NCBI GenBank assembly: GCA_963170165.1
Contig: CAUJGQ010000161.1
Coordinates: 1-47,396, forward strand
DNA: 47,396 bases
Reading direction: 5' to 3'
Source of the DNA: Chloroflexota bacterium
Lineage (GTDB): Bacteria; Chloroflexota; Dehalococcoidia; CAUJGQ01
Position 1 is the first letter of the stretch. The number at the start of each line of letters is the position of its first letter. Positions 3,226 to 23,498 of the stretch are shown piece after piece. The translations under genes and the position numbers were made by a program. Below the pieces are notes generated by a model. It did no database searches. It was not told the DNA's origin and saw only the letters and a program-made list of their open reading frames with translations.

Positions 3226-4466
3226 GTCGCTTCCTTCTCTGTGGCCTCAAGCTCGGCCAGGATTTCGGCGGTGTGCTCGCCCAGGCGCGGCGGGCGGCGG
3301 TACACCCCGCCAGGGGTGGCGGTGAACTTCATGGCGGTGTTGGGCAACACCGCGGGCCGGTCGCTGCCGGGGTGATCCACAGCCACCAGCATCTGCCGGG
3401 CGCGGATGTGGGCATCACTGAACAGGTCGGCGGCGTTGTTGACGGGGGCGACGGGCACCTTGCCGCCCAGCGTCTCCACCACCTCGGCAGTCGTGCGCGC
3501 CGAGGTCCACGCGGAAACCAGACCGCGCACTAGTGCTGCATTCTTTACCCGCTCGCGGCTGCTGAGGGTACGCTCGTCGTGGATCAGGTCTGTGCGGTCC
3601 ATGGCGGCGCACAGCAGCGCCCAGTGTGCCGGCCCCGGCGCGGCGATGGCGCAGTGGCCATCTGCCGTAGGGTAAATGTCAAATGGCGACAGTTGCGGGT
3701 GGCTGTTGCCCATCGGCCTAGTGACGATGCCCTGATACGAGTAGCGGTAGATCGCCGCCTCTGCCAGGTGCATCACCGCGTCGCACATACCCACATCCAC
3801 AAACTGTCCCTGCCCCGTGGCACGGGCGTGGAACAGCGCCGAGACAACGGCCAGCGCCGCTAGCGTGCCAGGGTACAGGTCGCCAACGCTGGGGCCGATC
3901 TTCAGCACCTGGCCGTCTGCGGTGCCGGTCATGCTGATGGCGCCGCTCCAGGCCTGGGCGACCGGGTCGTAGGCCGGCCAGTCCACATAGGGGCTGGCGC
4001 CGGTACGCGGATCGCCGAAGCCGCGGATGGCGGCGTACACCAGGCGGGGATTGCGGGCCGCGAAGGTCTCGTACGGCAGACCCAACCGCTCCATCACCCC
4101 GGCGCGAAAGTTCTCCACCAGCGCGTCGGCGCCATCCACCAGCCGCAGCAGCGTCTGCCGGTCTTCCTCCTGCTTGAGGTCAAGGACGATGCTGCGCTTG
4201 TTGCGGTTAATGGAGGCGAAGTAGCCGCCAAAGGCCCGCTCGCTGTCCTCGGGGAAGAAGGGCTCAGAGCCGCGGGTTGGGTCACCCTCGGGCGGCTCGA
4301 CCTTGATCACATCCGCGCCCATATCGGCCAGGAACATCGTGCCGTAGGGGCCGGCCAGCGCCCGCGTCAGGTCGATGATGCGCACCCCAGCCAGCGGGCC
4401 GGTAGCGGCAGGCTGCATCGGCGCAGCCCGCTCGTGTGCCGTGCGGTGGTCGTTCGGCGCGGTCAT
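3222..4466 (-). CDS. Class III CoA-transferase (CaiB/BaiF family)
   Basis: This 414-aa enzyme belongs to the family that moves CoA between carboxylic acids (formyl-CoA, succinyl-CoA:itaconate, mesaconyl-CoA transferases). The N-terminal LAGVRIIDLTRALAGPYGT, the block ADVIKVEPPEGD and the VENFRAG segment are typical. The catalytic aspartate should be Asp196 in GPSVGDLYPG, matching the GDSNTG aspartate of formyl-CoA transferase. It overlaps the MaoC gene upstream and the CitE gene downstream by 4 nt each (ATGA type), so the given start is favoured over Met17. In this operon it probably activates a C4-C5 dicarboxylate with a CoA donor. Substrate identity cannot be read from the sequence. Confidence 0.9.
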   Translation of the reverse strand: MTAPNDHRTAHERAAPMQPAATGPLAGVRIIDLTRALAGPYGTMFLADMGADVIKVEPPEGDPTRGSEPFFPEDSERAFGGYFASINRNKRSIVLDLKQEEDRQTLLRLVDGADALVENFRAGVMERLGLPYETFAARNPRLVYAAIRGFGDPRTGASPYVDWPAYDPVAQAWSGAISMTGTADGQVLKIGPSVGDLYPGTLAALAVVSALFHARATGQGQFVDVGMCDAVMHLAEAAIYRYSYQGIVTRPMGNSHPQLSPFDIYPTADGHCAIAAPGPAHWALLCAAMDRTDLIHDERTLSSRERVKNAALVRGLVSAWTSARTTAEVVETLGGKVPVAPVNNAADLFSDAHIRARQMLVAVDHPGSDRPAVLPNTAMKFTATPGGVYRRPPRLGEHTAEILAELEATEKEAT

Positions 4467-7827: not shown

Positions 7828-9249
7828 ATGGATATCACGCGACGGCTGGCACAATTCGTGGTGGAGACGTCGTACGACGACCTGCCCGCAGAAGCCGTGA
7901 CGCAGGCCAAGCGCGCCATCCTCGATACGTTGGGGGTGGCGCTGGCCGGGGTGAGCGAACCGTGCGCACGTATCGCCGCGGAGCTGGCGCGGGAGGAGGG
8001 TGGCCGGCCGGCCGCCACCGTTATTGGCTTCGGCTTTGCTGCTCCGGCGCGGGCCGCCGCGCTGGTCAACGGTACCAGTACCCACGCGCTGGACTACGAC
8101 GATGTCAACGCCTCGATGCGCGGCCACCCCAGCCCACCGCTGCTGCCCGCCGTGCTGGCCGCCGGTGAGGAGATGAACGCCTCCGGCCGGGCGCTAATCG
8201 AAGCGTTCGTGCTCGGCTTTGAGGTCGAATGCAAGGTAGGGCGCGGGCTCGGCGCCAGCCACTACCCCCACGGCTGGCACGCAACATCAACGTTGGGCAC
8301 GCTGGGCGCGGCGGCGGCAGCAGGCAAGCTTTATGGACTGAGTGTGGAGCAGATGGTGATGGCGCTGGGCATCGCTGCCTCGCTCGCCTCCGGCTCCCGC
8401 CAGAACTTCGGCACGATGACCAAGCCGCTGCACCCCGGCCACGCCGCCGCCTCGGGGCTGCTGGCCGCCCAGCTTGCCCGCCGCGGCTTCACCGCCGACG
8501 AGACGATCCTTGAGGCGCCGCTCGGCTTCATCCAGCTGTTCTCCCCGGCCAAAGACGCCACGCCCGAACGGGTACTGGAAGCACTGGGCGCCCCGTGGGA
8601 TATCGTTTCGCCCGGTATCAGCGTCAAGAAATACCCTTGCTGCTTCGTCACCCACACGGCGCTCGATGCGCTGCTAGCGCTGCGCGAGCAGCACGGCTTC
8701 GCCGCAGATGACATCGCGCGGGTGACGGTGACGATGCCGGGCGGAGGTGTGGTGCCGGCCAGCGTCAGCACCGCTACCGCCGAAGGGGAGGAAGCGCCGC
8801 CTGCCACCTACGGTCCGCTGATTCACGCCCGCCCCACCACCGGGCTGGAGGGAAAGTTCTCTATGCAATACTGCCTGGCGGCGGCAGCGCTGGAGGGCAG
8901 CCCGCGGCTGGACACCTTCGAGGACGCCGCCGTTCAGCGGCGGGAGGCGCAGTCGCTGCTGCGGCGAGTCGCGTTCGACCCCCAACCGGGTGTGGCCGGC
9001 ACACGGGTGACGGTGACGCTCGCCGGTGGCGCCACGCTCGAGGGCTCCTGCCGCGAGCCGCGCGGCGGCCCGGAGTCGCCGTTGAGTTGGGATGAGCTGG
9101 TGGCCAAGTACCGCGACTGTGCCGGCCGGGCGCTGCCCCCCGCGGCCGTGGAAGCCTCGCTGGCGCTGATTACCGGCCTGGAGCAGATGGCCGCCACCAG
9201 CGACCTCATGCGGCAGGTCGCCGGCCAGCCCGCCGCTGCCGCCGTCTGA
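7828..9249 (+). CDS. MmgE/PrpD family protein (2-methylcitrate dehydratase / cis-aconitate decarboxylase superfamily)
   Basis: A full-length 473-aa MmgE/PrpD protein. The N-terminal LAQFVVETSYDDLPAEAV and AILDTLGVALAG, the HALDYDDVNASMRGHPS block, the GWHATSTLGTLGAAAAAGKL block and KPLHPGHAAASGLLAAQLA are the conserved active-site regions. The family includes 2-methylcitrate dehydratase, cis-aconitate decarboxylase (which makes itaconate) and uncharacterised members in itaconate-degradation loci. It is cotranscribed with the IclR gene in all likelihood (50 nt apart, same strand). No prpB or prpC is nearby, which argues against a plain methylcitrate cycle. Confidence 0.88.
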   Translation: MDITRRLAQFVVETSYDDLPAEAVTQAKRAILDTLGVALAGVSEPCARIAAELAREEGGRPAATVIGFGFAAPARAAALVNGTSTHALDYDDVNASMRGHPSPPLLPAVLAAGEEMNASGRALIEAFVLGFEVECKVGRGLGASHYPHGWHATSTLGTLGAAAAAGKLYGLSVEQMVMALGIAASLASGSRQNFGTMTKPLHPGHAAASGLLAAQLARRGFTADETILEAPLGFIQLFSPAKDATPERVLEALGAPWDIVSPGISVKKYPCCFVTHTALDALLALREQHGFAADDIARVTVTMPGGGVVPASVSTATAEGEEAPPATYGPLIHARPTTGLEGKFSMQYCLAAAALEGSPRLDTFEDAAVQRREAQSLLRRVAFDPQPGVAGTRVTVTLAGGATLEGSCREPRGGPESPLSWDELVAKYRDCAGRALPPAAVEASLALITGLEQMAATSDLMRQVAGQPAAAAV

Positions 9250-9289: not shown

Positions 9290-9437
9290 GCGCCGCGCCC
9301 GCTCCGTCGTCTGGAAGGCGGCGCCTCCCACCGCGGCAAGCTGTCCGGCGCAGGCCGGCCTGGCCAACGAGCGTCCCGCCGGCGACCGCTGTCGCCCGGC
9401 CGCCTGAGCGACAGCCCCGGCCGCGTACGCTCGGACT

Positions 9438-9630
9438 GTACAATGCGGGCAGTGCGCCGGTGTGAGGAGGTCAGGATGGACGGCATGCCGCCCGGGCTCC
9501 CGCCCCTGCTGCGCGAAAAGCGCGAGGAGATCCTGCGCATCGCGGCGGCGCACGGGGCGCGGGACGTGCGCGTCTTCGGCTCGATGGCCCGCGGTGATGC
9601 CCGCCCCGATAGTGATGTGGACCTGCTGGT
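9438..9630 (+). repeat. Direct repeat copy 1: promoter, RBS and 5' half of the MNT gene
   Basis: These 193 bp match 10233-10425 at a constant offset of 795 bp with only about six mismatches by eye. They run from the putative -10 element through the catalytic half of the nucleotidyltransferase. Immediately after CTGCTGGT the two copies stop aligning. Confidence 0.9.
9439..9444 (+). promoter_or_regulatory. Putative -10 element (TACAAT) of the first MNT/HEPN module
   Basis: TACAAT lies 32 nt before the MNT start and is repeated exactly at 10234-10239 before the second module. No convincing -35 hexamer is visible in either copy, so this is a weak assignment. Confidence 0.3.
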
Positions 9631-9781
9631 GCAGATGGAGCGTGGCCGGTCACTGTTTGACCTGGTAGAGCTGTGCGACGCGCTTGAAGAGACGCTGGGG
9701 CGGGCGGTCGATGTCCTTACGGACGAAGGAATCAGCCCCTATCTGCGCGATGTGATCACCGCCGAGGCGCGGCCGTTGTGA
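9476..9781 (+). CDS. MNT-domain nucleotidyltransferase antitoxin, module 1 (MntA-like)
   Basis: A 101-aa minimal nucleotidyltransferase. The catalytic signature is GSMARGDARPDSDVDLLV, with Gly35-Ser36, ten residues, then Asp47-x-Asp49. In MntA/HepT systems such a protein modifies and neutralises the HEPN toxin by transferring AMP to a Tyr near its active site. ATG at 9476 follows GAGGAGGT; the longer frame upstream is not coding. The stop overlaps the GTG start of the HEPN gene (GTGA), as usual for these pairs. The 5' half is nearly identical to the second module but the C-terminal half differs. Confidence 0.88.
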   Translation: MDGMPPGLPPLLREKREEILRIAAAHGARDVRVFGSMARGDARPDSDVDLLVQMERGRSLFDLVELCDALEETLGRAVDVLTDEGISPYLRDVITAEARPL

Positions 9782-10119
9782 GCGGCGACCGTTTGTACCT
9801 CTGGCATATCGTCGAAGCCGGCCGCCGCATCGCCGAAGATGTTGCGGACGGCTATGACAGCTATTGCCGGGACCGCCGGCGCCAAGATGCCGTGATCCGC
9901 AACCTGGAGGTGATCGGCGAGGCAGCCAAACGCGTTTCCCCTGCACTGCGCGAGGCGCATCCCGCGATTCCGTGGCGGGCAATGACCGGCATGCGGGACC
10001 GGTTGATTCACCAGTACTTCGGCGTGAATCTGGACCTGGTGTGGGAAGCAGCGGCAGTGCGTCTGCCGGAGATCCTCCTGCACCTGGGGCCCCTGGTGGA
10101 GCAGGATCCTCCGCCGTAG
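9778..10119 (+). CDS. HEPN-domain toxin, module 1 (HepT-like)
   Basis: A 113-aa HEPN protein starting with GTG inside the MNT stop (GTGA overlap). The catalytic RNase motif R-x4-H-x-Y is intact: Arg73, His78, Tyr80 in MRDRLIHQYFGVN. The IRNLEVIGEAAKRV helix is typical of the DUF86/HepT group. In characterised homologues the HEPN protein cleaves RNA and the Tyr of this motif is AMPylated by the partner. The module is probably an active toxin-antitoxin pair. Identity with the second HEPN is only around 40% by eye, far below that of the adjoining MNT 5' halves. Confidence 0.88.
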   Translation: MSGDRLYLWHIVEAGRRIAEDVADGYDSYCRDRRRQDAVIRNLEVIGEAAKRVSPALREAHPAIPWRAMTGMRDRLIHQYFGVNLDLVWEAAAVRLPEILLHLGPLVEQDPPP

Positions 10120-10128
10120 ACGGAACTC

Positions 10129-10201
10129 TCAGCCCGCCCGCACGGGCTCAATCACCAGATCGCCCCAGCTGCTGATCGATGCCGTCAGTGGCGTAGACGA
10201 G
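10129..10201 (-). pseudogene. Remnant of the 3' end of dnaE
   Basis: On the minus strand this stretch reads into GDLVIEPVRAG and a stop, and further upstream ATDGIDQQLG. The genuine dnaE ends with ATDGIDQRLGP and GELVIEPVRAG. About 35 nt are almost identical to 10924-10960, followed by a deletion of about 20 nt and a second aligned block. It sits between the two MNT/HEPN modules in the same relation to the first HEPN stop as dnaE has to the second. Confidence 0.8.
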
Positions 10202-10232
10202 ACCGCCGTCCACCGAGCGGCGCCGCCGCACC

Positions 10233-10425
10233 GTACAATGCGGGCAGTGCGCCGGTGCGAGGAGGTCAGGATGGACGGCATGCCGCCCGGGCTCCCGCCC
10301 TTGCTGCGCGAAAAGCGCGAAGAGATCCTGCGCATCGCGGCGGCGCACGGGGCGCGGGACGTGCGCGTCTTCGGCTCGATGGCCCGCGGCGACGCCCGCC
10401 CCGATAGCGATGTGGACCTGCTGGT
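10233..10425 (+). repeat. Direct repeat copy 2: promoter, RBS and 5' half of the second MNT gene
   Basis: Second copy of the 193-bp unit at 9438-9630, about 97% identical by eye, with the TACAAT element at 10234-10239. Confidence 0.9.
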
Positions 10426-10576
10426 CGGCGTAGAACCGGTCCACTCGGCATGGTTCCCTGCCGGGTTGGTGCTGGAGCTAGAAGATCTCTTGGGGCGCAG
10501 CGTAGACGTGGTTACTGATGGGTCGCTGCACCACGCCGTGCGCGAGCAGATATTAGCTGAGGCGCGGCTACTGTGA
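10271..10576 (+). CDS. MNT-domain nucleotidyltransferase antitoxin, module 2 (MntA-like)
   Basis: A 101-aa paralogue of the module 1 protein with the same start context (GAGGAGGT, then ATG) and the same GS-x10-D-x-D site (Gly35-Ser36, Asp47, Asp49). Residues 1-51 are identical between the two proteins as far as I can see. From residue 52 on they diverge (GVEPVHSAWFPAG against QMERGRSLFDLV) and share only scattered positions such as LGR-VDV-TD. The C-terminal half probably contacts the cognate HEPN partner. The stop overlaps the following GTG start. Confidence 0.88.
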   Translation: MDGMPPGLPPLLREKREEILRIAAAHGARDVRVFGSMARGDARPDSDVDLLVGVEPVHSAWFPAGLVLELEDLLGRSVDVVTDGSLHHAVREQILAEARLL

Positions 10577-10911
10577 CGGGCGACCGCCTGTATCTCCTCC
10601 ACATCAGCGAGTGCATCAGGCGAGTTACACGCCATGCCGCCTCCGGGCGAGATGCCTTCCTCGCGGAGGAGGTCAGGCAGGATGCCGTTCTGCGCAATCT
10701 CCAGGTAATGTCAGAATCCACCCAGCGGCTCTCCACCGCGCTCAAGGCAGCACACCCGGCAATTGACTGGCGGCGCATCGCCGCTTTCCGCAACCTACTG
10801 GCGCATGACTACCTCGGTGTGGATATGCGCCTGATATGGGATGTGATGGAGCAGGATATCCCGCCACTCGCCGAGACCATCGCTGCCATGTTGGAGGCGA
10901 CAGACCGCTAA
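10573..10911 (+). CDS. HEPN-domain toxin, module 2 (HepT-like)
   Basis: A 112-aa HEPN protein with GTG start and GTGA overlap with its MNT gene. Arg73, His78 and Tyr80 form R-x4-H-x-Y in FRNLLAHDYLGVD, so the RNase site and the Tyr target are intact. It keeps the frame of module 1 (GDRLYLLH start, VRQDAVLRNLQVM) but has diverged strongly. It converges on dnaE, whose stop lies only about 10 nt beyond its own. Confidence 0.88.
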   Translation: MTGDRLYLLHISECIRRVTRHAASGRDAFLAEEVRQDAVLRNLQVMSESTQRLSTALKAAHPAIDWRRIAAFRNLLAHDYLGVDMRLIWDVMEQDIPPLAETIAAMLEATDR

Positions 10912-10920
10912 CCCAGGCGC

Positions 10921-13900
10921 CTATCCCGCCCGCACGGGCTCAATCACCAGCTCGCCCCAGCCCTCCAGGATCGGCCCAAGCCGCTGGTCGATACCGTCGG
11001 TGGCGAGCGTGGTACCCATGCTCACGTGATGCACGTTGTACGGTGTCTGCACCACCAACCGCACCTCATCCGGACCGGGGAGCGAACGCAATACCTGCAC
11101 CAGCTCATTCAGGCGGCGGCGGTCGGCAGGCTCGTCGTCGGTCTCACGCAGGGTGATGCGCAGCCGCCGCCGCTCCCGATCCTCGGTGGTGATGGGCTTC
11201 GGCTCCGGCCGGGCATGGGGATGCCTCTTGCCGTTGCTGATCGGCGCGCGCGGCGCCGGGACGGCCACATGGACATCGCCGGAGTGCCGGCGCTCCGGCG
11301 CGGTCACCGGCGCCGTGGTGCCGGCGCCCTGCTCGTTCACGCCCGGGGCGGAGCGGCCGCCGCGTTGCGCCTCATCGGGTTCCCAGCCACTGTCCTCGTC
11401 GGTGAGATAGCCGTCATCGCCCGGCGGCGCGCCCCGATCACCGCTCCGGACGAGCGGGGCGACGGCGGCCAGCAGGGTGCTGCCCCGCACTGAGCCGGTG
11501 GCCTCATCCCACTCGCCGGCGTCGTCCACGGTGACATCTAGCCGGTCGTTGCGCATCCGCACCTTTGCCGACAGCAGCAGGATCTTGCCCTCCTGCCACA
11601 GGTCGCGGGACTTCTCGTAGGTATCCGGCCAGACCACCACCTCGACCTTGCCGGATAGGTCCTCGATCTGTGCAATGACGAAGCTCTTGCCTGCCTTGGT
11701 CAGCAATGTGCGCGTGCCTGCCACCATTCCGGCAATCATCAGGTCGCGCCCCGCCATCTCTTCGTTGATCTCGGCAGCCACGGCAGTGATCTTCGCCGCC
11801 AGCGACGTATGCGCCCGTTTGAAGGGGTGGTCAGAGACGTAGACACCGAGCAGATCCTTTTCCCAGGCCAGGACCTCTCCCGGGTGCTCCTGGACAGGGT
11901 CCAGCTCCAGCGCCGGCAGCGGCGTCTGCACCTGGTCACCGAACAGGTCGAACATCGTTGTTTGCCCGCTGTCGCGCAGCTTCTGCTCCCGCGCGATCAG
12001 GGAGGCGATCCGGTCAACATTCGTCGCCAGCGTGGTGCGGTTTGGGCCGAAACCGTCCAGCGCGCCTGCCTTGATCAGGCTTTCCAGGGCCCGCTTGTTG
12101 AAACCTTTGACCTGAATCCGGCGGCAGAAGTCCTCGAGTGAAGCGAACGGTCCCTTCTCCTCCCGCTCAGCAACGATACCGGCAATCGCTCCCTCACCGA
12201 CGTTTTTGATGCACGAGAGGCCAAAGCGGATGGATTCGGATGGGGCATCCGAGGAGAGCGGAATAGCGGCCGGTGTCTCAGTGGTGGCGCCTTCGGGTAC
12301 CACCGCAGCAGTGGCCGTGCTTGCGCCGGTCTGCCGCTCGATGGTGAAGTTGACCGCGCTGGCGTTGACGTGAGGAGGGAGAACGGGGATACCGAGCTTG
12401 ATACATTCGGCCACGGCCGCGCCCACTCGACCGCCGAAGCCGGCGGGATGCGTGTTTGCCAGCATCATGACGGCCGTCAGATACTCGGCCGGATAGTTGG
12501 CCACGAGATAGGCGGTCTGATAGGAGAGGGTGGCGTAGCAGACCGAGTGCGCCTTGTTGAAGGCGTAGCCGGCAAACGGCTCGATCAGGTCAAAGACGGC
12601 GCTGGCATCCTCGGCGGTGTAGCCCTGGCCCTTGGCGCCCTTGACGAACTTCTCGCGCTGCTCCGCCATCATCGAGGCGATCTTCTTACCCATCGCCTTA
12701 CGCACCTTGTCCGCCTCACCCATGGTGTAGCCGGCGAACTGGCGCAAGATGAACAACACCTGATCCTGGTAGACGATCACGCCGTAAGTCTCGTCCAGGA
12801 TGTTGGCCAGGGCGGGATGGGGATACTCAATCGGCGCCTTGCCGTGCTTGGCGGCGCAGAAGCGGGGGATGTGCTGCATCGGCCCGGGGCGGTACAGCGC
12901 CACCATCGCGGACAGGTCGGCGATGCTGCTCGGCTTCAGCTCCTGGATGTAGCGGCGCATCCCCGCCGACTCAAGCTGAAAGACGCCGAAGGTCTCGCCG
13001 CGGCCCAGCATCTCGTACGTCTTGGCGTCGCCGTCCGCCAGCGTGCGCAGGTCCAGGTCGATGCCGCGTTGCTGCTTGATCAGCTCGACCGCCCGGGCCA
13101 GGATGGTGAGGTTGCCCAGGCCGAGGAAGTCCATCTTCAGCAGGCCGGCCTCGGCGACGGTGTTCATCTCCCATTGTGTGAGCGGCAATGCCTGTTCACC
13201 GCCGCGCACCGGCCGCTGCAGCGGCACCACATCGATCAGCGGATCGCGCGAGATCAACACTCCGGCGGCGTGGGTGCTGACATGGCGCGCCACCCCCTCC
13301 AACGGCCGGGCGGCGTCCACCAGCCGCTTGACCTGCGGGTCGGCCTCGTACACCTGCCGCAGCTCCGCGTTCTCAGCGAAGGCCCGTTCCATGGTCATGT
13401 TGGGCGCGTCAGGCACCATCCGCGCCACCCGGTCCGTCTCGGCCACGGTGTAACCCAGTGCCCGCCCGACATCTTTGATCGCGGCCTTCGGCTTGAGCGT
13501 GCCGAAGCTGCAAATCTGTGCCACGCGGTCGTGGCCGTACCGCTCCGCCGCCCAGCGGATCATCTCCTCACGCCGGTCGTCTGCGAAGTCCATGTCAACA
13601 TCCGGCATCTCGCGCCGCTCGACGTTGAGGAAGCGCTCGAAGACGAGGCGGGTACGGATCGGGCAGATATCGGTGACATCGAGCGTATACAGGATGATGC
13701 TGGCCGCCGCCGAGCCGCGCACGCCCATGGCGATGCCGCGCTGCGCCGCCGCCCGCGCGATCTCGGCCACAATCAGCATGTAGGCCGCGAAACCGGTCAC
13801 CTCCACAACGTGCAGCTCGTACTCCAGCCGGCGACGCACCTCATCGGCCGCGCCGGGGACAGGCGGCTCCGGGTTGGGGTGCAGTGGCCACGGCCCGGCA

Positions 13901-14859
13901 GCGGCGTCGCCATAGCGGCGCTTGAGCCCCTCATGACACACCTGGGTCAGGTATTGCTGTGGGGTCATGCCCGCTGGCAGCTCTGGGTCGGGCAGCATCA
14001 CCCGGCCGAACTCCAGCGTCAGGTCACACATCTCGGCGACGCGCTGCGTGTTGTCGATGGCGTCCGGCCGCTCGCGGAACAGGGGAATGCGCCGGATCTC
14101 CTCTTCGCCGATCAGGTAATAGCTGTCGCCTTCCAGCCGGAAGCGCTTCGGGTCATCGACAGTGGAGTTGCTGCCGATGCACAGCAACAGCTCGTGCGAG
14201 CGGGCATCCTCCGGCGCGGTGTAATGCGAGTCGTTGGTGCCGGCCAATGGCATCCCGGTCGCATCGGCGAAGGCCAGCAGCCGCGGATTCACCCGGTCGA
14301 GCATTCCACGCAGCTCGCCGGCGGCATCCGGATGGTCCTGGATCTCGACGAACACCGCGTCGAACACATCCTTGTAGAACCCGGTGGCAGCGCGGGCGTC
14401 TTCATCACGCCCGTCCTGTAGCGCCTTGAATAGCTCCGCGGAGGGACAGCCGGTGAGGGCGATGATGCCCTTGCCGTACTTGGCCAGCAGCTCGCGATCC
14501 ATACGCGGCTTGTAGTAAAAGCCTTCGAGGTTGGCCAGGGTAGTAAGCGCCATCAGGTTCTTGTAGCCCTGCGCGTCACGGGCCAGCAACGTCAGGTGAT
14601 GGTAGCCACTCTTGTCGCGGCTCTCGCGGTTGAAGCGGGAGCCGGGGGCGACATACGCCTCCACACCGATGATCGGCTTGATGTCCCGCGCCCGCGCTTC
14701 CCGGTAAAACTCGATCACGCCATGCATGGCGCCGTGGTCGGTGATGGCCAGCGCCTCCTGCCCCAGCGCCTTAGCGCGGTCCAGCAGCGCCGGAATGCGG
14801 GCAAGTCCATCGAGCAAGGAGTACTCGGTGTGGGTGTGCAAATTCGTGAACATCGGCAT
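10921..14859 (-). CDS. dnaE: DNA polymerase III subunit alpha
   Basis: The replicative polymerase catalytic subunit, about 1,312 aa. An N-terminal PHP domain starts with FTNLHTHTEYSLLDGLARIP and ITDHGAMHGVIEFY. The palm carries PDVDMDFADD near residue 418 with two catalytic aspartates. HhH repeats follow (the KGFNKRALESLIKAGALDGF segment), then an OB domain (GRDLMIAGMVAGTRTLL to DRLDVTVDDA). An unusual low-complexity, charged stretch of about 120 residues separates the OB domain from the C-terminal part. ATG at 14859 or 14853 fits best; the frame upstream to 14970 lacks similarity. Fragments of this gene recur at 10129-10201 and 21155-21391, so the locus has been duplicated in pieces on both sides. 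Confidence 0.96.
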   Translation of the reverse strand: MPMFTNLHTHTEYSLLDGLARIPALLDRAKALGQEALAITDHGAMHGVIEFYREARARDIKPIIGVEAYVAPGSRFNRESRDKSGYHHLTLLARDAQGYKNLMALTTLANLEGFYYKPRMDRELLAKYGKGIIALTGCPSAELFKALQDGRDEDARAATGFYKDVFDAVFVEIQDHPDAAGELRGMLDRVNPRLLAFADATGMPLAGTNDSHYTAPEDARSHELLLCIGSNSTVDDPKRFRLEGDSYYLIGEEEIRRIPLFRERPDAIDNTQRVAEMCDLTLEFGRVMLPDPELPAGMTPQQYLTQVCHEGLKRRYGDAAAGPWPLHPNPEPPVPGAADEVRRRLEYELHVVEVTGFAAYMLIVAEIARAAAQRGIAMGVRGSAAASIILYTLDVTDICPIRTRLVFERFLNVERREMPDVDMDFADDRREEMIRWAAERYGHDRVAQICSFGTLKPKAAIKDVGRALGYTVAETDRVARMVPDAPNMTMERAFAENAELRQVYEADPQVKRLVDAARPLEGVARHVSTHAAGVLISRDPLIDVVPLQRPVRGGEQALPLTQWEMNTVAEAGLLKMDFLGLGNLTILARAVELIKQQRGIDLDLRTLADGDAKTYEMLGRGETFGVFQLESAGMRRYIQELKPSSIADLSAMVALYRPGPMQHIPRFCAAKHGKAPIEYPHPALANILDETYGVIVYQDQVLFILRQFAGYTMGEADKVRKAMGKKIASMMAEQREKFVKGAKGQGYTAEDASAVFDLIEPFAGYAFNKAHSVCYATLSYQTAYLVANYPAEYLTAVMMLANTHPAGFGGRVGAAVAECIKLGIPVLPPHVNASAVNFTIERQTGASTATAAVVPEGATTETPAAIPLSSDAPSESIRFGLSCIKNVGEGAIAGIVAEREEKGPFASLEDFCRRIQVKGFNKRALESLIKAGALDGFGPNRTTLATNVDRIASLIAREQKLRDSGQTTMFDLFGDQVQTPLPALELDPVQEHPGEVLAWEKDLLGVYVSDHPFKRAHTSLAAKITAVAAEINEEMAGRDLMIAGMVAGTRTLLTKAGKSFVIAQIEDLSGKVEVVVWPDTYEKSRDLWQEGKILLLSAKVRMRNDRLDVTVDDAGEWDEATGSVRGSTLLAAVAPLVRSGDRGAPPGDDGYLTDEDSGWEPDEAQRGGRSAPGVNEQGAGTTAPVTAPERRHSGDVHVAVPAPRAPISNGKRHPHARPEPKPITTEDRERRRLRITLRETDDEPADRRRLNELVQVLRSLPGPDEVRLVVQTPYNVHHVSMGTTLATDGIDQRLGPILEGWGELVIEPVRAG
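14567..14803 (-). repeat. dnaE 5' segment duplicated at 21155-21391
   Basis: 237 bp inside the PHP-domain coding region, matched at a constant offset of 6,588 bp with about three mismatches by eye. The copies are in the same orientation and flank the helicase/endonuclease gene. Confidence 0.93.
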
Positions 14860-15007
14860 CCGGCATCCGCCGTTCGCCGTCCAGGGGCGATGGCCCCCGA
14901 TCCAGCGCGCGGCGAGAGATACCGCCAGCGTACGCCAGGGCGGGGGAGTCGAGCATCTGGCAGGCGGCATTTGGAAGCGAAAGATAGACTCGCTATGCGA
15001 AAGCGGA

Positions 15008-15032
15008 TATTCTTGAAGTGGCTATTCTTGAA
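15008..15032. repeat. 10-bp direct repeat upstream of dnaE
   Basis: TATTCTTGAA occurs at 15008-15017 and 15023-15032, 15 bp apart, in the 189-nt gap between dnaE and the helicase gene. It lies upstream of dnaE and just past the helicase stop. It may be a regulator binding site; otherwise the gap shows nothing. Confidence 0.4.
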
Positions 15033-15048
15033 TTAGACAGCGTGCTCG

Positions 15049-18000
15049 CTACAGTAGTGGTGTGATAGTCTGGTAGATCGCCTTCAGGACACCCGACCCG
15101 GAATCTTGATGCCCTAACCAGCACGCAGTCGCGTAAGCGAGACGGTCTCGTCGCAGGTCAGGATTCTCAGTGAGTACGCGCTGTGCTGCGGCGAGAATCT
15201 CCTCCGGACAAATCTCGGCGAGAGGGCGGGCCTTGTCGCTTGGGAGCGGCCGCCGAGGGATGGCCTGTACCATATCTGCTGGCCACAAGAAATGTCGTTC
15301 GCGCCGGATTTGACCGCGCCGAATCGCCTCTGTGATGCCTGTTTTGACTGTGGCGGACTGTTGCGTACTCACCTGGGAAACGCCGTACATTCCCGCGATG
15401 AGCCTAATGAGTCGAGTACCCAGGATGGGGCCTTCCGCCTCAACGACTCGCACGACTTCGACCGCCATGCGATCGGGCAATTGGAGAAGCAAAGCGTCAG
15501 GAAGATGCTCGATCTCCGGAATAAAGGGCCGAAAGTAGATGGCATCCTCACTGCTGCCGGCAATCGGTTCATCAGTCGCCGAACTGGGAACGACCTCCGC
15601 TGCCGGCCGCGGATCATGTGACTGCGCTTTGGCCGAACTAGGTGGGTGGTTGATATCACCAGTGCGAGTAACGATCCGTTCTGACCGTGGTAGCGAAGGC
15701 GTTCCAGCGTTTACCTTCAGGCTGGAATGCTCACCCTCCAGAGGTGAAAGGGGAAGATCCATCTCACCAAGAGAAAATCCCGCGGGTTGAGGTGGCGCTG
15801 GCTGCGGCGCACCAACGCTCATGGCAGCGTCAATGGCATCCAGCACACGCATTGTCTCGGTGTCCGGATCGCGCGCCCAATCAGCCGACCAGATGCGATG
15901 AATTCGCCAGCCCAGCCCTTCCAGCACTTGCTGCCGCAGCCGGTCACGGTCGCGGGCGGTGCGCGCACGATGATACGTCGCGCCATCACACTCAACGCCG
16001 AGAATATAGCGGTCGTGACTCGATGGATGGCGGATCCCGATGTCAATACGGAACCCTGAGCAGCCGACCTGGGGAACGACGTCCAGTCCCCTGGCACGCA
16101 ATGCCTCAATCACCGCTTCTTCGAACGGCGACTCCGGATCACGCCCCGATGGTTCGGAAACGGCTGGGAGCCTGCCATCTCGCACAAAGTAAAGATACTG
16201 CTGAAGGAGTTCCACACCCCTATTTGGATTCGTCAGCTGCGATAGCTGAATCCGCTCCGGCTGCATCGAAGTGGCGAGCGTTAGCCGCCTGCGCGCGCGC
16301 GTCACCGCTACGTTGAGGCGCCGCTCACCCCCCGTGCGGTTGATCGGTCCGAAATTCAGCGCCACGACTCCGTTCGCGTCGGGCCCGTACCCAAGCGAAA
16401 AGATGATGGAGTCGCGCTCATCGCCCTGCACGTTCTCCAGCGCCTTGACGAAGAACGGCTCGTGGCGCTCCTCAGCGAATAATGGCTCCAGCCGCGGATC
16501 CGCCCGGCAGAGCGTTTGCACTTCATCATAGATGCGATCTGCTTGTGCCTGATTCAGCGTGATGACGCCTAGCGAACTCCCATAGCCCCATCTGCTAAAG
16601 TGCTCGAATACCAACCGCGCGACCCGTCGAGCCTCTGGCACATTGGTCCGTGACTTGCCCCTATCCCATACGCCGTCCGACACGTACTCGTAATACACAC
16701 CAGTGTCAATCTTGGAGGCAGTGACCGCAGGAAATGTAATGAGTTCGTTATCATAGTAGTGCGCGTTCGAGAAGGTGATCAGCGTTTCGTCGTGACTCCG
16801 ATAGTGCCATTTCAGGCGCGTGTGTTGAAACTGACGCAGCGCAGCACACTCATCAAGATTACTCTCAAGTGAGTCCAGCATCCCATCTTCATCATCATCA
16901 GTATCTGGATCTTCCGCGACAAAGAATGCGGTGGGCGGGAGCTGGCGATCGTCGCCAGCCACGATAACCTGGCGCGCACGCGCAATAGATCCGATAGCAT
17001 CTTCTGGCATGATCTGTGATGCTTCATCGAAGATCACGACATCGAACGCAAAGTGCTCCTTTGGTAGATAGTGGGCAACCGAAAGGGGACTCATAAGCAG
17101 GCAAGGCTTGAGCTCGAGCAATAGGTGGGGTATACGGGAAAACAGCCGCCTCAGCGGAATGTGCCGCAGCTTCTTCTTGGTTTCATGCGTAAGAACCTTG
17201 AGTTCGCCCCTAAAAGGATGATTGATATTCCCATGAATCCACGAACGAGACTTGTGCAGGAGCCAGGCGATTTCCTCCGCTCTGGCGCGGCCAAGTCGGC
17301 TATCAAGCGCGCGGAACTGGGATATGACATCCTCGTGTTCCCTTCTACGGAAACTCCCCAATGCCTGCATTGAGTTATGTGCTTCATCCAGCCAACGCGT
17401 CACAATCCAGCGTTCGAAGACCTCCTCGATGTGTTCGAGAGGCACGCCTCCCTGCAGCACGACACGCAGGAAGTCCTGTAGTCCAAGACGAGTACATGCC
17501 TCCTGCAAGTTACCGAAGTCCTCCCACTCCTGCAGCCGCGGGACCGCTTGCTCTCGTTGTCTGAGCCACGAAGCGAGATCGTTGAGCGAGGCTTCATGAA
17601 CCGGGAGACCACTGATCAGGTGGGAGTGAGCCGGGAAGATGTCGTATAGCCGCTTGCTTCCCTCTGGGAGTCGAGCGTGCAGGGCTTCAAGCGCGGGCAA
17701 CGCCACGCGCAGCGCCTCCGGCACCGCACTGCCATCGGACACCGCCACGATGAATTCCGCAGGAGGTGGATGACCGCCGAAGTGTTCTCGTACCTTCCCC
17801 GTCCACCCCAGCGCCTGGATCACCTGATCCCATGACGTGGCCATATCGGCAAAGTAAGAGCCGTACGTGTGGGCGAGTTCCTCGTGACGCGCGGTCACGT
17901 CGCTCTGCAGCGCCTGCATCCGCGCTGCACGTTGCACATCCTCGATTAGCTCGATGGTCGAACGCGACGTATCGGGCTGGAGAGTGCGCTTAGCTGTATC

Positions 18001-18705
18001 GTGCGCCGTCCAAAACGAATGGAACTCCTCTGCCAGCCGTGCGAGCGCCGAGTTGAGTTCCTGGAGAGGCGCATGCTCATATGCTGGATGGCCAGCCACT
18101 ACGCCGCTCAAACTGAGCGCGCTTCCAAGATGCAACATCGATTGTTTGAGTACTTGCAGGGTCGAGGCCGCCACCTGTGCCCGAATGTGCAGCACCTGCA
18201 CACCTTCACCCGAAGCGCTCATCACCTGCGCCAACCGAGCCGGCATTTGACCGTTGTAGATCGCCAGCAGCTGCCGAACTGAGGAGGTTGCCTGGAGAAC
18301 GACATCCCAGTCGGTGTTGTCGCCAAGGAAGTGGAGTCCAAACGCTTGAATTTGCACGGGCCTGCGTTGCTCCTCACTGGCAACCATCGATTGGTACTCC
18401 GTGAGGCGCTGCAGATGAGCGATCGCTGCCTCTCTCTTGAGCCTCCCCGGTGCTCGCAGCAGGCCCTCCAGCGCGGCCCGATCACGGCGCCAACCACCTT
18501 TGAGCAAGCCGAGCAGACCGCGGTAATCACTGGTGAACCGCTGTAGCAATTCGTTCCCATCAACATCAAAGATGCCCGGATGAAATACCTGCTCGATTTC
18601 AGCCCGAGCCCTGGCGCTCCCTGGCCCCGCGCGCTTCTGATTCCGCACTGAGCAGGCTGTCCCATGACAGCCATGATGCGGCGGGCCGGGGGTCGGAGCC
18701 GGCAA
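15049..18705 (-). CDS. DUF4011-type helicase/endonuclease, C-terminal part (after frameshift)
   Basis: Carries the second half of a large SF1-type helicase: Walker B and motif III region (VVIFDEASQIMPEDA, VIVAGDDRQLPPTAFF) and the late motif VAVTRARRRLTL. It is followed by a Vsr/MTES_1575-like nuclease domain (GFRIDIGI and LGVECDGATYHRARTARDRDRL). The C-terminal region, with MAVEVVRVVEAEGP and RRERHFLWP, resembles DUF3320-type tails. The reading frame opens at 18705, but its first 25 or so codons overlap the upstream frame. The protein-like sequence begins around RARAEIEQVFHPG, exactly where the upstream frame ends. I therefore read it as the continuation of 18599-20773 after a 1-nt frameshift. 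Proteins of this architecture are common in anti-phage defence islands. Base composition is lower in G+C than the flanks. Confidence 0.85.
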   Translation of the reverse strand: MPAPTPGPPHHGCHGTACSVRNQKRAGPGSARARAEIEQVFHPGIFDVDGNELLQRFTSDYRGLLGLLKGGWRRDRAALEGLLRAPGRLKREAAIAHLQRLTEYQSMVASEEQRRPVQIQAFGLHFLGDNTDWDVVLQATSSVRQLLAIYNGQMPARLAQVMSASGEGVQVLHIRAQVAASTLQVLKQSMLHLGSALSLSGVVAGHPAYEHAPLQELNSALARLAEEFHSFWTAHDTAKRTLQPDTSRSTIELIEDVQRAARMQALQSDVTARHEELAHTYGSYFADMATSWDQVIQALGWTGKVREHFGGHPPPAEFIVAVSDGSAVPEALRVALPALEALHARLPEGSKRLYDIFPAHSHLISGLPVHEASLNDLASWLRQREQAVPRLQEWEDFGNLQEACTRLGLQDFLRVVLQGGVPLEHIEEVFERWIVTRWLDEAHNSMQALGSFRRREHEDVISQFRALDSRLGRARAEEIAWLLHKSRSWIHGNINHPFRGELKVLTHETKKKLRHIPLRRLFSRIPHLLLELKPCLLMSPLSVAHYLPKEHFAFDVVIFDEASQIMPEDAIGSIARARQVIVAGDDRQLPPTAFFVAEDPDTDDDEDGMLDSLESNLDECAALRQFQHTRLKWHYRSHDETLITFSNAHYYDNELITFPAVTASKIDTGVYYEYVSDGVWDRGKSRTNVPEARRVARLVFEHFSRWGYGSSLGVITLNQAQADRIYDEVQTLCRADPRLEPLFAEERHEPFFVKALENVQGDERDSIIFSLGYGPDANGVVALNFGPINRTGGERRLNVAVTRARRRLTLATSMQPERIQLSQLTNPNRGVELLQQYLYFVRDGRLPAVSEPSGRDPESPFEEAVIEALRARGLDVVPQVGCSGFRIDIGIRHPSSHDRYILGVECDGATYHRARTARDRDRLRQQVLEGLGWRIHRIWSADWARDPDTETMRVLDAIDAAMSVGAPQPAPPQPAGFSLGEMDLPLSPLEGEHSSLKVNAGTPSLPRSERIVTRTGDINHPPSSAKAQSHDPRPAAEVVPSSATDEPIAGSSEDAIYFRPFIPEIEHLPDALLLQLPDRMAVEVVRVVEAEGPILGTRLIRLIAGMYGVSQVSTQQSATVKTGITEAIRRGQIRRERHFLWPADMVQAIPRRPLPSDKARPLAEICPEEILAAAQRVLTENPDLRRDRLAYATACWLGHQDSGSGVLKAIYQTITPLL

Positions 18706-20773
18706 GCAGACCCGCCTGGATCAGCCGTTCTGCGCCGGCGACAGTGTCCGGCTCGGGCTGACCAACGATGGCCGCCAGTGCAGCAAGTTCCGAGGGAAGG
18801 GTTGACAGCGCCTCTTGTGCCTTGGCAAGACCTTCGTGAATGACTGCACGCAATTCCACCGCCCGCGGCACAGCCGCCTGCCCGCGATCGATGAGAGTGA
18901 GTGCAGCCGTGTGCGCTGGTCCAAGCCTCTGTGCGAGCCGCGCGCAGTTCAACTCGATCAGCGCCGGTGTGTACAGGTGCATGAGTTCCTGCCGCTCAGC
19001 GTGCCACTTGTCGAAGCGCTCGCGGTACGCCGTCGCGGACTGCACCAATGGCAGCAGCGATTCCTCGGTGAACCAGCCAGCAGGCGGATAGGGTGACTGT
19101 GCGGCGAGGCGGGCCACCGTGATCATCCGCTCAATAGTCTCCAGCGTATGGGGTGCCGGCAGGCCGCACAGACGTGCCACATCTCCTGATGCCGCTGCGG
19201 TTTCATCGACGAGTTGCGCAAACGAGCGGAATTGCATCCGCAGTTGGTCCTGAAGCCCAAGTGAGAACGTCGTGATCGTGGAACCACGCCAGGGATGCTC
19301 GTGGTAGTCCCGCAGGAGGCCGGTCATGCTGGCCATGCGCCGAACCGCGCCATTCATTGCCTCCCACTGGTCCACGGTCAGGTGAAGCAAGTTCACCGGC
19401 AGCTGGACATCGAACGGCAGGTCAGGTAGCGCGGTGAGCTTGGCCAACTTCCCGTGCATGGCGAACGTGGTACGCCCGTACTGGTCGCGGGGCTCATGTA
19501 GTGCCGCGACATAGCCGTTCAGTTGGTCGCGCCGTTGGCGTAGCTCGGCAAAACGCTGTGGAATCTCCTGGTCAGGCTTCTGGAATGCATTCTGGCTCTT
19601 CAGCGAACGGGCGAGCTGCGCGATTACCTCGCGCTTGTTGGCACGGTGGCTGTGCGCTTCCAGGCAGAACGCGCCCAAGCCTGCGTCGTCGAGCCGTTTC
19701 TTGACCACCTCAAGCGCGGCCATCTTTTCGCTCACAAACAGCACCTTCTTCCCGTTTGCGAGGAGCGCAGCGATGATGTTCGCGATGGTCTGGCTCTTTC
19801 CAGTGCCGGGAGGCCCATCGATGATCAGGTTGTGGCCGGCAACCGAATGTGACAATGCGTCCATCTGGCTTGAATCGGCATCGAGAACCGGAAACAGCTC
19901 GGCTGGCTTCGGGGAGCGATCTAATTCCTCTGCGCTGGGCGCGACATTGGCTGCCATTGGGAGGTCATGCGCTCCGGCCAGCGCACCTGCTACTGGATGC
20001 AGCACAATCTGATCGCGGTACGCGTCGAGATCGCGGACCATCGCCATCTTGAGGAAGGAGAACTGGCCAAGCCACGACTCCTCCAGTATCTTCCAGCCGT
20101 GAGGGCGCACGAGTTGTCTTACGTCCGCAATCCACCGTGTGAATGTGTCCGGAACTGGTTCTTCGGGCAGCGGCGGCAGCTCAATACCGAAGTCTCGCTT
20201 CAGGAGAAAGGCGAGTGTTGGGTTGATCGTGATGTCATCGTCAAAGGGAGCGAGCGGAAACGTTCGATCCTTGTCAAGCTGTTCGATCTGGACCGGAATG
20301 AGAATGAGTGGTGACTTCACGGTCTCCGATGCGCTGTCCGATTCCCTCCATTCGAGCATGCCTGTTGTGACGAACAACGTGTTGACGCCGCGTTCCTCCA
20401 AGGCTGAACGCGCTTGAAGTCGAGTCTTGTAGAGGATTCTGGCCAGAGTAGGTGCCGCAAGACTGGTGGCAAGGTATCCCGGACGCAGGGGCGCCTGTAC
20501 GCTAGCTTCGGCCTTAGGTGGATTTAACTGAAGCGTAGTTGCGTTGTTACCACCTGTCTCATCGGAGAGGGTCAAGTCCTCGTCTCGGACATGCACCGGG
20601 AATTTGAGCGCACGCTCCTTGACGACGAGATGCAAGAACAGGTCGGCGCAAGCCGGTGCATTAATCTGCACGGTCTGCCGCGTTGGCTTGAAGTAAAGCA
20701 GACGATTACGGCGGGACAGGTCAAGCAATCGTTGCCGCCATCGCTCGACCTTCGCCTCAGCCTGTCCGGGCAT
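18599..20773 (-). CDS. DUF4011-type helicase/endonuclease, N-terminal part (before frameshift)
   Basis: Starts with the DUF4011 signature (KVERWRQRLLDLSRRNRLLYFK, region 1-25 of this frame) and TRLQARSALEERGVNTLFV. It reaches the Walker A motif IIDGPPGTGKSQTIANI and SEKMAALEVVKKRL of an SF1 helicase. The frame is open from 20809, but ATG at 20773 has a GGAGAG site and starts just before the domain. It ends prematurely at 18599 in ARERQGSG, while family members continue without a break into the sequence found in the next frame. As one gene (15049-20773) it would encode about 1,900 aa, the normal family size. As it stands it is either inactivated or affected by a one-base sequencing error. Confidence 0.85.
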   Translation of the reverse strand: MPGQAEAKVERWRQRLLDLSRRNRLLYFKPTRQTVQINAPACADLFLHLVVKERALKFPVHVRDEDLTLSDETGGNNATTLQLNPPKAEASVQAPLRPGYLATSLAAPTLARILYKTRLQARSALEERGVNTLFVTTGMLEWRESDSASETVKSPLILIPVQIEQLDKDRTFPLAPFDDDITINPTLAFLLKRDFGIELPPLPEEPVPDTFTRWIADVRQLVRPHGWKILEESWLGQFSFLKMAMVRDLDAYRDQIVLHPVAGALAGAHDLPMAANVAPSAEELDRSPKPAELFPVLDADSSQMDALSHSVAGHNLIIDGPPGTGKSQTIANIIAALLANGKKVLFVSEKMAALEVVKKRLDDAGLGAFCLEAHSHRANKREVIAQLARSLKSQNAFQKPDQEIPQRFAELRQRRDQLNGYVAALHEPRDQYGRTTFAMHGKLAKLTALPDLPFDVQLPVNLLHLTVDQWEAMNGAVRRMASMTGLLRDYHEHPWRGSTITTFSLGLQDQLRMQFRSFAQLVDETAAASGDVARLCGLPAPHTLETIERMITVARLAAQSPYPPAGWFTEESLLPLVQSATAYRERFDKWHAERQELMHLYTPALIELNCARLAQRLGPAHTAALTLIDRGQAAVPRAVELRAVIHEGLAKAQEALSTLPSELAALAAIVGQPEPDTVAGAERLIQAGLLAGSDPRPAASWLSWDSLLSAESEARGARERQGSG

Positions 20774-21154
20774 ATCTCTCCACACAGAGCGCGCTGGCAC
20801 CACTGTCATTGCGCGGTATGTACAGTGTGTCTCATGTTATGACAGATCGCTGCCGGATGCAGCCCCGATGTGACCACCCGTGCGGCCAGCCATGGGTCAT
20901 CCCATCGTGGGTACACGGTAGGGGAGCGAACGTCGCTTAGCCTACTGAAGGGGCCATTGTTCGACGGTCGTGCCGTCACTGTTTGGCAGAGTCAACCGGC
21001 CCAGACAGAAAGTACAAAGGCACCCGTGATCTGAGCGAGTGGCGGTCGGACCGGTGACGCTCAGTCGAGCGATCAACAGCCCATCTGATGCTTCGGACCC
21101 ACTTCTCGCGGTCCTTGCTAAGGGGTCTCTCTCACCTAGCAGTGTCATGTACAA
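20774..21154. other. Intergenic stretch, no supported gene
   Basis: About 380 nt upstream of the helicase gene. A 70-codon minus-strand frame (20942-21154) has a CLCTFC segment but no ribosome binding site or recognisable domain. The promoter of the helicase gene should lie near 20775-20850, where the sequence is relatively A/T-rich, but no clear -35/-10 pair was found. Confidence 0.4.
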
Positions 21155-21391
21155 CCCTGCGCATCACGGGCCAGCAACGTCAGGTGATGGTAGCCACTCT
21201 TGTCGCGGCTCTCGCGGTTGAAGCGGGAGCCGGGGGCGACATACGCCTCCACACCGATGATCGGCTTGATGTCCCGCGCCCGCGCTTCCCGGTAGAACTC
21301 GATCACGCCATGCATGGCGCCGTGGTCGGTGATGGCCAGCGCCTCCTGCCCCAGCGCCTTAGCGCGGTCCAGCAGCGCCGGAATGTGGGCA
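21155..21391 (-). pseudogene. Copy of the dnaE 5' region (PHP domain fragment)
   Basis: Near-exact duplicate of 14567-14803 in the same orientation. It would encode IPALLDRAKALGQEAL through LTLLARDAQG. It lacks the true N-terminus with the first metal-binding histidines (HTHTEYSLLDG) and everything after the first 110 codons, so it cannot make a polymerase. The high identity shows the duplication is recent or kept by recombination. Confidence 0.92.
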
Positions 21392-21526: not shown

Positions 21527-21650
21527 CGGATCTGCGCGGAGCCGCTGCCCCTGGAGTTCTGAATCCAGCCGAACGCGGTGAGCATGTCCTGACGGTGAGT
21601 ACGCGGTAGATCACCTGTTCAGCGGCTCGGTGGCCAGCAGCAGCGCTGAC
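21527..21650 (-). pseudogene. Frameshifted 3' remnant of an SDR gene
   Basis: Minus-strand reading gives LSALLLATEPLN, then after a frame change RQDMLTAFGWIQN and RGSGSAQI. The intact SDR at 22536-23402 ends with KSALLLATEPLDK, SQEILGEFGWIDN and KGSGYSQI. It is thus the decayed C-terminus of a close SDR paralogue. It sits next to the dnaE fragment, and both are gene-end debris. The 135 nt between them (21392-21526) are unassigned. Confidence 0.7.
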
Positions 21651-21701: not shown

Positions 21702-22115
21702 CTACGGCTCATCGCGCGTCAGCCCTGGCACCCGGTCGAAACCCTGATCAAAGGAAAGCACGGTAGCGGGAGGAGTCTCTTCGGCATAGGTGGCGAGCAG
21801 GGCATCGACGAACGGCAGGCGCGGGTGCGCTTCATAGAGTTCAAGCGCCCGTAGGTAACGCCCCTTGCGAGGGAGCTTGACACCTCTGAGCAGGATGATG
21901 CTCGAGAGATGACGCCGCGTTTCGCTCCGGGGGAATCTGTACAACACCTTGGAACTCACCACCTGGACGAGCTCGACCAGCACCGTCTCGGTGGGGATTC
22001 CGGTGCGCATGCCAGTGTGCAACTCCTACAGGGCGCGTTGCGCTCGGGGTGAGTGGCTGGCATGGTCGCCGGTCCGGTGGCGGATGATGATGTTGGTGTC
22101 AAGCAGGGGAGCCAT
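21702..22115 (-). pseudogene. vapC: vapC-like PIN-domain toxin gene with premature stop
   Basis: Read from ATG at 22115, the frame starts MAPLLDTNIIIRHRTGDHA, the classic PIN N-terminus with Asp6. It reaches TAG at codon 30 (22026-22028), then continues in the same frame through IPTETVLVELVQVV, LPFVDALLATYAEE and VLSFDQGFDRVPG, which hold the remaining acidic residues. A single nonsense change therefore splits an otherwise complete toxin of about 137 aa. It lies 6 nt after the antitoxin gene. Translation could restart at a TTG at 22022, but that product would lack Asp6, so RNase activity is unlikely. Confidence 0.82.
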
Positions 22116-22121
22116 CGGTGC

Positions 22122-22382
22122 TTACCGTCCGTCCCGGATGATGTCCTGTGCATGCTCCTCGGCAGCGATCTCCGTCATCTCCTCCACACTGATTCGCCGC
22201 GAAAGCTGAGGCAGTACACCATAGCTCTCATCCACTGGTGAACGAACCGGCATGATCGTCACCCTCTCCCCTTCCACGTGGATCGCGACCCGATCCTTGG
22301 CTTTGATTCCCCAGCGCCGGCGCACTTCGAGCGGCAGCGTGATCTGACCTTTGGGGCTGACACTGCTTTCGAAGACCTTCAT
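22122..22382 (-). CDS. vapB: AbrB/MazE-type antitoxin (VapB-like)
   Basis: An 86-aa protein with an N-terminal swapped-hairpin AbrB DNA-binding domain (SPKGQITLPLEVRRRWGIKA and DRVAIHVEGERVTIMP) and a C-terminal tail that would bind the toxin (SRRISVEEMTEIAAEEHA). ATG at 22382 follows GAGGGAG; the open frame to 22460 is not supported. It would neutralise the PIN toxin and repress the operon. Because vapC carries a stop codon, this is probably an orphan antitoxin that still regulates its own promoter. Confidence 0.85.
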   Translation of the reverse strand: MKVFESSVSPKGQITLPLEVRRRWGIKAKDRVAIHVEGERVTIMPVRSPVDESYGVLPQLSRRISVEEMTEIAAEEHAQDIIRDGR

Positions 22383-22535
22383 GGCCGGCTCCCTCTGGTG
22401 GTACGACTCACTGATCTTGGTTGGACCACCGCGACGCAACCACGCCAGCCGGCGTGTCAAGCGATGGCCCAGCAGAAAGCCGCCATTCTCTGTGAGAGCG
22501 ATGGCGGCTCTGCCGGTTGCTGTCAGGCGGACCCG

Positions 22536-23402
22536 CTAGATCTGCGAGTAGCCGCTGCCCTTGCGGTCGACACCGGTGCCCTTGGCGTTGTCGATCCAGC
22601 CAAACTCGCCCAGGATCTCCTGGCTATAGGTGACGCGGCCGGTCACCTTGTCCAGCGGCTCGGTGGCGAGCAGCAGGGCGCTCTTGGCCATCAGGATGGG
22701 CGGCTCGCCACGCGGGTCGTCCATACCGGTCACCAGGTGGTGATGCACGGTGCCGGGGGTGGGCACGACCTGCGAGGGGGAGACGCAGGTGACGGAGATG
22801 CCGTGCTGGTACACCTCCTGGGCAAGCCCCTGGGTAAAGCGCTCCATCGCCGCCTTTTCGGCGCCGTAGCAGGTGCCACCGCTGCTGGCGGGGGCGTTCG
22901 GGTAGGGACCGCGGCCCGGGCCGATGGCGGCGCCGGAGGAGATGTTGACGATGCTGCCGCCCCCACGCGCCACCATGCCGGGGTCGTTATCGCCGGCGTT
23001 GAGCACCATGTGACTAAGAATGAACATCGCGTGGAAGTTCACCGCCCACGAGCGCATCCAGCGGTTGAGCGGGTAGTCCTTGATCGGGATGAAGTACGTC
23101 AGCGCCGCGTTGTTCACGAGCACGTCAATCGGTCCGTACTTGGCCCGCGTCTGCTCAATCAGGTTCTGGCAATCCTCCGGCTTGGAGATGTCCGCCGCGA
23201 TCGCGGTCGCCTCGCCGCCGGCCTTCGTGATCGTGTCCACCGTCGTCTGCAGCGAGCCCTCCAGCGGGTGTTCGCCCTCGTGCAGCGTGCGTGCCGCACA
23301 GACAACCTTGGCCCCTTCCTCCGCAAACAGCCGGGCGATCTCCGCGCCGATGCCGCGGCTTGCGCCCGTTACCACGGCCACTTTGCCGTCTAGCTTGCCC
23401 AT
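22536..23402 (-). CDS. Short-chain dehydrogenase/reductase
   Basis: A 288-aa classical SDR. The NAD(P)-binding motif is VVTGASRGIGAEIARLF, followed by VNNAA, the catalytic Ser in NISSGAA and the YGAEK motif (Tyr and Lys). The Arg in AARTLHEG just after strand 2 suggests NADP(H). An insertion of about 15 residues (GPGRGPYPNAPASSGG) separates Ser and Tyr. ATG at 23402 follows GGGAGGAA. The substrate is unknown. Its 3' end has a decayed paralogue at 21527-21650. Confidence 0.9.
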   Translation of the reverse strand: MGKLDGKVAVVTGASRGIGAEIARLFAEEGAKVVCAARTLHEGEHPLEGSLQTTVDTITKAGGEATAIAADISKPEDCQNLIEQTRAKYGPIDVLVNNAALTYFIPIKDYPLNRWMRSWAVNFHAMFILSHMVLNAGDNDPGMVARGGGSIVNISSGAAIGPGRGPYPNAPASSGGTCYGAEKAAMERFTQGLAQEVYQHGISVTCVSPSQVVPTPGTVHHHLVTGMDDPRGEPPILMAKSALLLATEPLDKVTGRVTYSQEILGEFGWIDNAKGTGVDRKGSGYSQI

Positions 23403-23498
23403 CGTGTTTCCTCCCTTTGGGGGCCAGGCACAGGGCGCCGCGCCCTGCATCCCGCCCCGGCATGGCAGAGCTTACGCCGGACACCGCTAGAGGCAAGC

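Follow-up and report, generated by a model that had tools for sequence, protein, structure and literature searches.

Direct partial duplications of dnaE and of other gene ends around cargo genes in the genome of an uncultured Dehalococcoidia lineage

A 237-bp segment from the 5′ part of dnaE is present in direct orientation on both sides of a Hhe-like gene. No integrase gene is located between the two copies, and comparable gene-end duplications around cargo genes recur elsewhere in the same genome. The reading that we favor, with moderate confidence, is an insertion-duplication: foreign DNA with the hhe-like gene would have integrated upstream of dnaE and left an inert dnaE relic at its far end. 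Known recombination routes explain such a footprint in outline; its most interesting part is the recurrence within one genome.

Results

A 5′ segment of dnaE flanks a Hhe-like gene on both sides

The window analyzed (47,396 nucleotides) is the complete contig C161 of a 4.41-Mb assembly that consists of 213 contigs and has an estimated contamination of 3.5%. Its relevant features are listed in Table 1. The start codon of dnaE is likely at position 14853 (residue 1, MFTNLHTHTEYSLLDG), and the open frame reaches 14970. Numbered from this start, the duplicated segment encodes residues 17 to 95, the beginning of the PHP domain. The two copies lie on the same strand at an offset of 6,588 bp and differ by three mismatches and no gaps (98.7% identity; BLAST E ∼1e-118). 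The initial annotation had described this repeat, and on recheck its coordinates, spacing and near-identity were reproduced exactly. The far copy is in frame, but it lacks a start codon, codons 1 to 16 and anything beyond about codon 95, shortly after which a stop codon is reached. It is best read as a dead relic. The sequence TGCCC, a candidate for short microhomology, is found close to where the relic ends on the right, next to the last mismatch, and the position of the illegitimate junction is ambiguous.

Table 1. Positions of features in the window
Feature	Coordinates	Strand	Basis or remark
203-bp direct repeat, copy 1 (mntA-A upstream region and N-terminus)	9428..9630	+	95.6% vs copy 2
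MntA-like nucleotidyltransferase antitoxin A	9476..9781	+	profile match
HepT-like RNase toxin A	9778..10119	+	profile match
dnaE 3′-tail relic with 20-bp deletion, between the MntA-HepT modules	10133..10193	-	local alignment
203-bp direct repeat, copy 2 (mntA-B)	10224..10425	+	95.6% vs copy 1
MntA-like antitoxin B, first part repeats module A	10271..10576	+	profile match
HepT-like toxin B	10573..10911	+	profile match; 9 nt from dnaE stop
dnaE, DNA polymerase III alpha subunit	10921..14853	-	Pfam and NCBIfam polc matches; residue 1 = MFTNLHTHTEYSLLDG
Native repeat copy, dnaE codons 17-95	14567..14803	-	pairwise comparison and translation
Hhe/PDC-S37/ProA-like gene (ORFs 18599-20809 and 15049-18705)	15049..20809	-	profile searches, GC
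Frameshift region	18599..18640	-	intact homologue: one frame to 18632, another from 18612
Non-coding stretch, hhe-like gene to dnaE relic	20810..21154		no second copy in genome
dnaE relic, codons 17-95 only	21155..21391	-	234/237 vs native copy
SDR-type gene 3′-end relic	21542..21643	-	∼76% vs 22573-22676; score 106 vs 41 in shuffles
vapC (PIN) pseudogene, one internal stop	21702..22115	-	translation; missed by intact-PIN search
vapB/MazE-type antitoxin gene	22122..22390	-	profile match
Intact SDR-family oxidoreductase, tail duplicated past vapBC	22536..23450	-	profile match

An assembly-wide search revealed no third copy of the 237-bp segment, the remaining match being 30 bp long; matches of 30 and 57 bp on contigs C90 and C158 were judged to be due to chance. 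The genome does not contain a second, near-identical dnaE from which the repeat could stem, its other dnaE being only 34% identical. A 53-base piece of the fragment had no exact match in IMG/VR, and we rejected a phage or virus origin. When dnaE residues 1 to 100 were used as query against 294 genomes, no comparable short fragment was present among the best matches listed, which argues against a class-wide pattern. The best dnaE relatives carry the labels Chloroflexi or Dehalococcoidia.

Apart from the hhe-like gene, the interval between the dnaE copies has no substantial coding sequence, and neither an integrase nor a transposase gene was found there. According to Pfam and profile matches it encodes, in this order, a DUF4011 domain, an AAA_11/AAA_12 helicase and an MTES_1575 nuclease, as do the single-gene anti-phage proteins Hhe, PDC-S37 and ProA. 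The profile of PDC-S37, a PADLOC candidate, is covered end to end (positions 6-622 and 621-1530 of 1550), although over two overlapping ORFs. The present gene differs from these proteins by this split and by scores below the curated cut-off of both NCBIfam equivalogs, NF042953 and NF058533 (Hhe/ProA); the two ORFs score 638 and 309 bits against a cut-off of 2000, and 862 and 473 bits against a cut-off of 1500. Most homologues consist of one ORF of ∼1,640-2,050 aa, whereas here the homologue alignments change frame at about 18612-18632. The sequence is therefore read either as a pseudogene or as containing a sequencing or assembly indel. Thus, what had been annotated as a large defence-like gene does correspond to one DUF4011/helicase/nuclease gene, but one split in two by a frameshift. 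The GC content of the gene and insert is 0.595, compared to 0.663 for dnaE. The hhe-like gene is probably foreign, of anti-phage type, and broken.

It had been proposed that loss of the island would damage dnaE, and this holds: recombination between the repeats would remove 6,588 bp, and with them not only the helicase gene but also the upstream region of dnaE, its start codon and codons 1 to 16. One could envisage that the repeat is a functional device by which the island is held hostage under selection, since recombining out destroys dnaE. We regard such a device as extremely improbable. The cargo gene appears frameshifted, which argues against present selection for it, and other deletions could take it out. 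The loss cost is moreover not general to the footprint, because excision at the citrate synthase locus described below would leave an intact gene. Finally, no spanning repeats were found at 20 loci (326 kb) in other genomes that contain homologues of the hhe-like gene. The latter result also indicates that the pattern follows this genome and not the hhe-like gene.

A second dnaE relic separates two tandem MntA-HepT modules

On the other side of dnaE, the window contains two tandem modules, each with adjacent NTP_transf_2 and HepT-like genes. They resemble the MntA-HepT (type VII) toxin-antitoxin systems in this neighboring arrangement of a nucleotidyltransferase and a HepT-like RNase gene; they differ in that two modules stand in tandem with a dnaE-tail relic between them, and in NCBIfam scores under the equivalog cut-off. 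No other HepT matches exist in the assembly. A copy of the dnaE tail had been annotated at 10129, and this relic is real though short: it consists of 37 bp at 97% identity and ∼23 bp of lower identity, and spans a 20-bp deletion. Its local alignment score is 78, whereas none of 200 shuffles scored above 40. Hence dnaE fragments are indeed present on both sides of the gene, as the initial annotation had it.

HepT-A is separated by 9 nt from the dnaE stop of the relic, and HepT-B by 9 nt from the real dnaE stop. A tandem placement of two alleles of the same locus would produce such equal spacings, and the order module A, dnaE tail, module B, dnaE looks like a single locus duplicated in two allelic forms. 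The two HepT proteins share 43% of their amino acids. The mntA upstream regions and 5′ parts are 96% alike at the DNA level and then diverge sharply, which resembles the outcome of gene conversion or of an exchange of modules.

This arrangement resembles an allelic tandem duplication, as would arise by unequal crossing-over between chromosomes with different alleles of the dnaE neighborhood, followed by decay. As an explanation for the whole region we consider this decidedly unlikely: the 6.3 kb enclosed on the right are not copied from neighboring sequence, so that pure unequal exchange cannot supply the hhe-like gene. The idea of repeated unequal exchange, put forward in the initial annotation, therefore fits best on the MntA-HepT side, but the hhe side needs one insertion-duplication and a later deletion.

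Outward of the right dnaE relic, a vapBC pair with a broken vapC is located between the SDR gene and a relic of the SDR tail that is 76% identical to it. Elsewhere in the window, three repeats spaced by 273 bp (41506-42198) lie inside a 1,517-aa ORF (40813-45366, minus strand), which probably encodes a repeat-domain protein.

The repeats are expected to be resolvable in this assembly

An assembly artefact or a strain chimera has to be considered for a metagenome-assembled genome in 213 contigs with 3.5% estimated contamination. Contig C19 (3,293 bases) has identical ends of 141 bases (1-141 and 3153-3293), which suggests that the assembly k was 141; the contig itself represents a small circle of DNA or, alternatively, a loop that arose from a repetitive gene. 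The longest exact run common to both dnaE copies is 131 bp, and the repeats on contigs C155, C195 and C4, presented below, likewise have longest exact runs below 141. At the probable k of 141, the dnaE repeat and the others should therefore be resolvable. In addition, the dnaE relic is flanked on either side by sequence that is not dnaE and shows three differences from the native copy, and comparable structures exist on further contigs. Taken together, these data make an artefact highly improbable. Conversely, contigs would be interrupted at younger, identical repeats that exceed k. Short-read assemblies therefore probably miss a part of these insertions, and our footprint count is probably a lower bound.

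Gene-end duplications around cargo genes recur in the genome

For the rest of the genome we sampled 81 stretches by contig number, two of them from C195 and 1.17 Mb in all, for direct repeats of at least 100 bp and at least 95% identity with spacings over kilobases. The C195 locus was picked for its PIN gene, the only other one above the cut-off in the genome, and not by contig number. There (8046-9103), a 742-bp insert with a PIN toxin-antitoxin module lies between two copies of a citrate synthase 3′ end (158 bp, 98.7% identical), a clear case of the footprint. Beyond C195, repeats of this kind were found at two loci in the sample. On C155 (5247-7799), an amidase 3′ end is present in two copies (114 bp, 97.4%) with rhodanese, methyltransferase and ArsR genes between them, and each copy has its own stop codon (TPVEPGVS* and TPFDPRVA*). 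On C4 (11021-15983), nested near-identical copies of 90, 316 and 400 bp surround the tail of a regulator-like gene; this locus also holds large proteins without Pfam matches. The first 539 kb of the sample contained no such repeat, and the weaker repeats in the sample were mostly intragenic.

The C195 and C155 loci, and in nested form C4, share one architecture, namely the end of a gene, cargo, a copy of that gene end, and the original neighbor. The duplications vary in length (114, 158 and 237 bp) and their ends are arbitrary. Among the inserts compared, no terminal words or motifs were shared beyond chance.

The initial annotation had seen in the structure something particular to an essential gene. 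This could not be upheld, as equal footprints occur at the citrate synthase, the amidase and the regulator-like gene. Given this recurrence, duplication of a gene end around cargo looks like the usual route by which this lineage acquires DNA, and not like a special trick of dnaE.

Discussion

Insertion by duplication had been offered before as a possible origin of the dnaE repeats, and the direct copies that bracket the insert agree with it. We envisage that the incoming DNA carried the hhe-like cargo plus part of a dnaE gene, which would have paired with the resident dnaE. If the incoming DNA was circularised, one crossover could have integrated it; alternatively, one of its ends could have recombined homologously while the other was joined illegitimately. 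The cargo would thereby have come to lie between two dnaE copies, one forming the working 5′ end and the other a leftover fragment. The relic lacks codons 1 to 16 and the dnaE upstream region, which indicates that a single step is insufficient for the right junction and that a second deletion is needed; this later deletion would have taken codons 1 to 16 and the start region off the relic. The same process may have produced the dnaE-tail relic between the MntA-HepT modules and the footprints on C195 and C155. What we infer is how the DNA recombined, from which donor it came, and the order, direction and age of the events.

This insertion-duplication reading is supported by partial direct target duplications around the inserts at dnaE, C195 and C155 and, in nested form, at C4, by the lower GC content of the insert, and by the equal 9-nt spacings on the left of dnaE. 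The genome contains ComEC, and a genome search for Ku found none, on which ground we rejected Ku-dependent end joining. Both observations are compatible with, though weak support for, DNA uptake and recombination over such joining. Counting against insertion-duplication, neither a donor sequence nor an empty site was found. The only family member compared has a dnaE that is 62% identical and no neighborhood in common, and relatives show no conserved dnaE gene order that could serve as empty site. The three differences between the dnaE copies fit a donor allele and drift of one copy equally well.

The main rival is a one-step process, in which foreign DNA would have been acquired by template switching during replication or captured at a staggered break. 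In template switching, replication would exit dnaE, copy foreign DNA and re-enter dnaE upstream, so that a stretch is copied twice without any need for homology in the donor. A single step of this kind accounts for C195 and C155 and agrees with the variable lengths, the arbitrary ends and the absence of a common terminal motif. We nevertheless judge it unlikely. The 203-bp homology of MntA-HepT module B to module A and the equal 9-nt spacings to dnaE point to an allelic donor, Ku is absent, and the copies differ by 1-4%. It is very unlikely, in our opinion, that a dedicated, undescribed system inserts small cargo (toxin-antitoxin, defence, or ArsR/methyltransferase genes) at gene ends with target duplications of ∼100-400 bp and no integrase in the cargo; the inserts have no terminal sequence in common beyond chance.

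Insertion-duplication as proposed here has described counterparts. During E. coli conjugation, single-crossover integration duplicated 109-950 bp of the lacZ end (PMC3240628). There too, foreign DNA adjoins a direct copy of part of the target gene end, and no integrase is involved; the present footprints, in contrast, are natural and older, one copy has decayed, and the route is one that we infer. For arrays of displaced gene ends at Vibrio T6SS loci, homology-facilitated illegitimate recombination has been proposed (PMC5361080). As in those T6SS/Rhs loci, a module is added at a gene end and the old end persists as a relic, but here the targets are the housekeeping genes for DnaE, citrate synthase and amidase, and the cargo consists of toxin-antitoxin, defence or metabolic genes.

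To our knowledge, insertion-duplication footprints have rarely been described in series. The several footprints in this genome, with copies that are 96-99% alike, would record the uptake of defence and toxin-antitoxin genes by an uncultured lineage, and the relics would be usable for ordering the insertion events.
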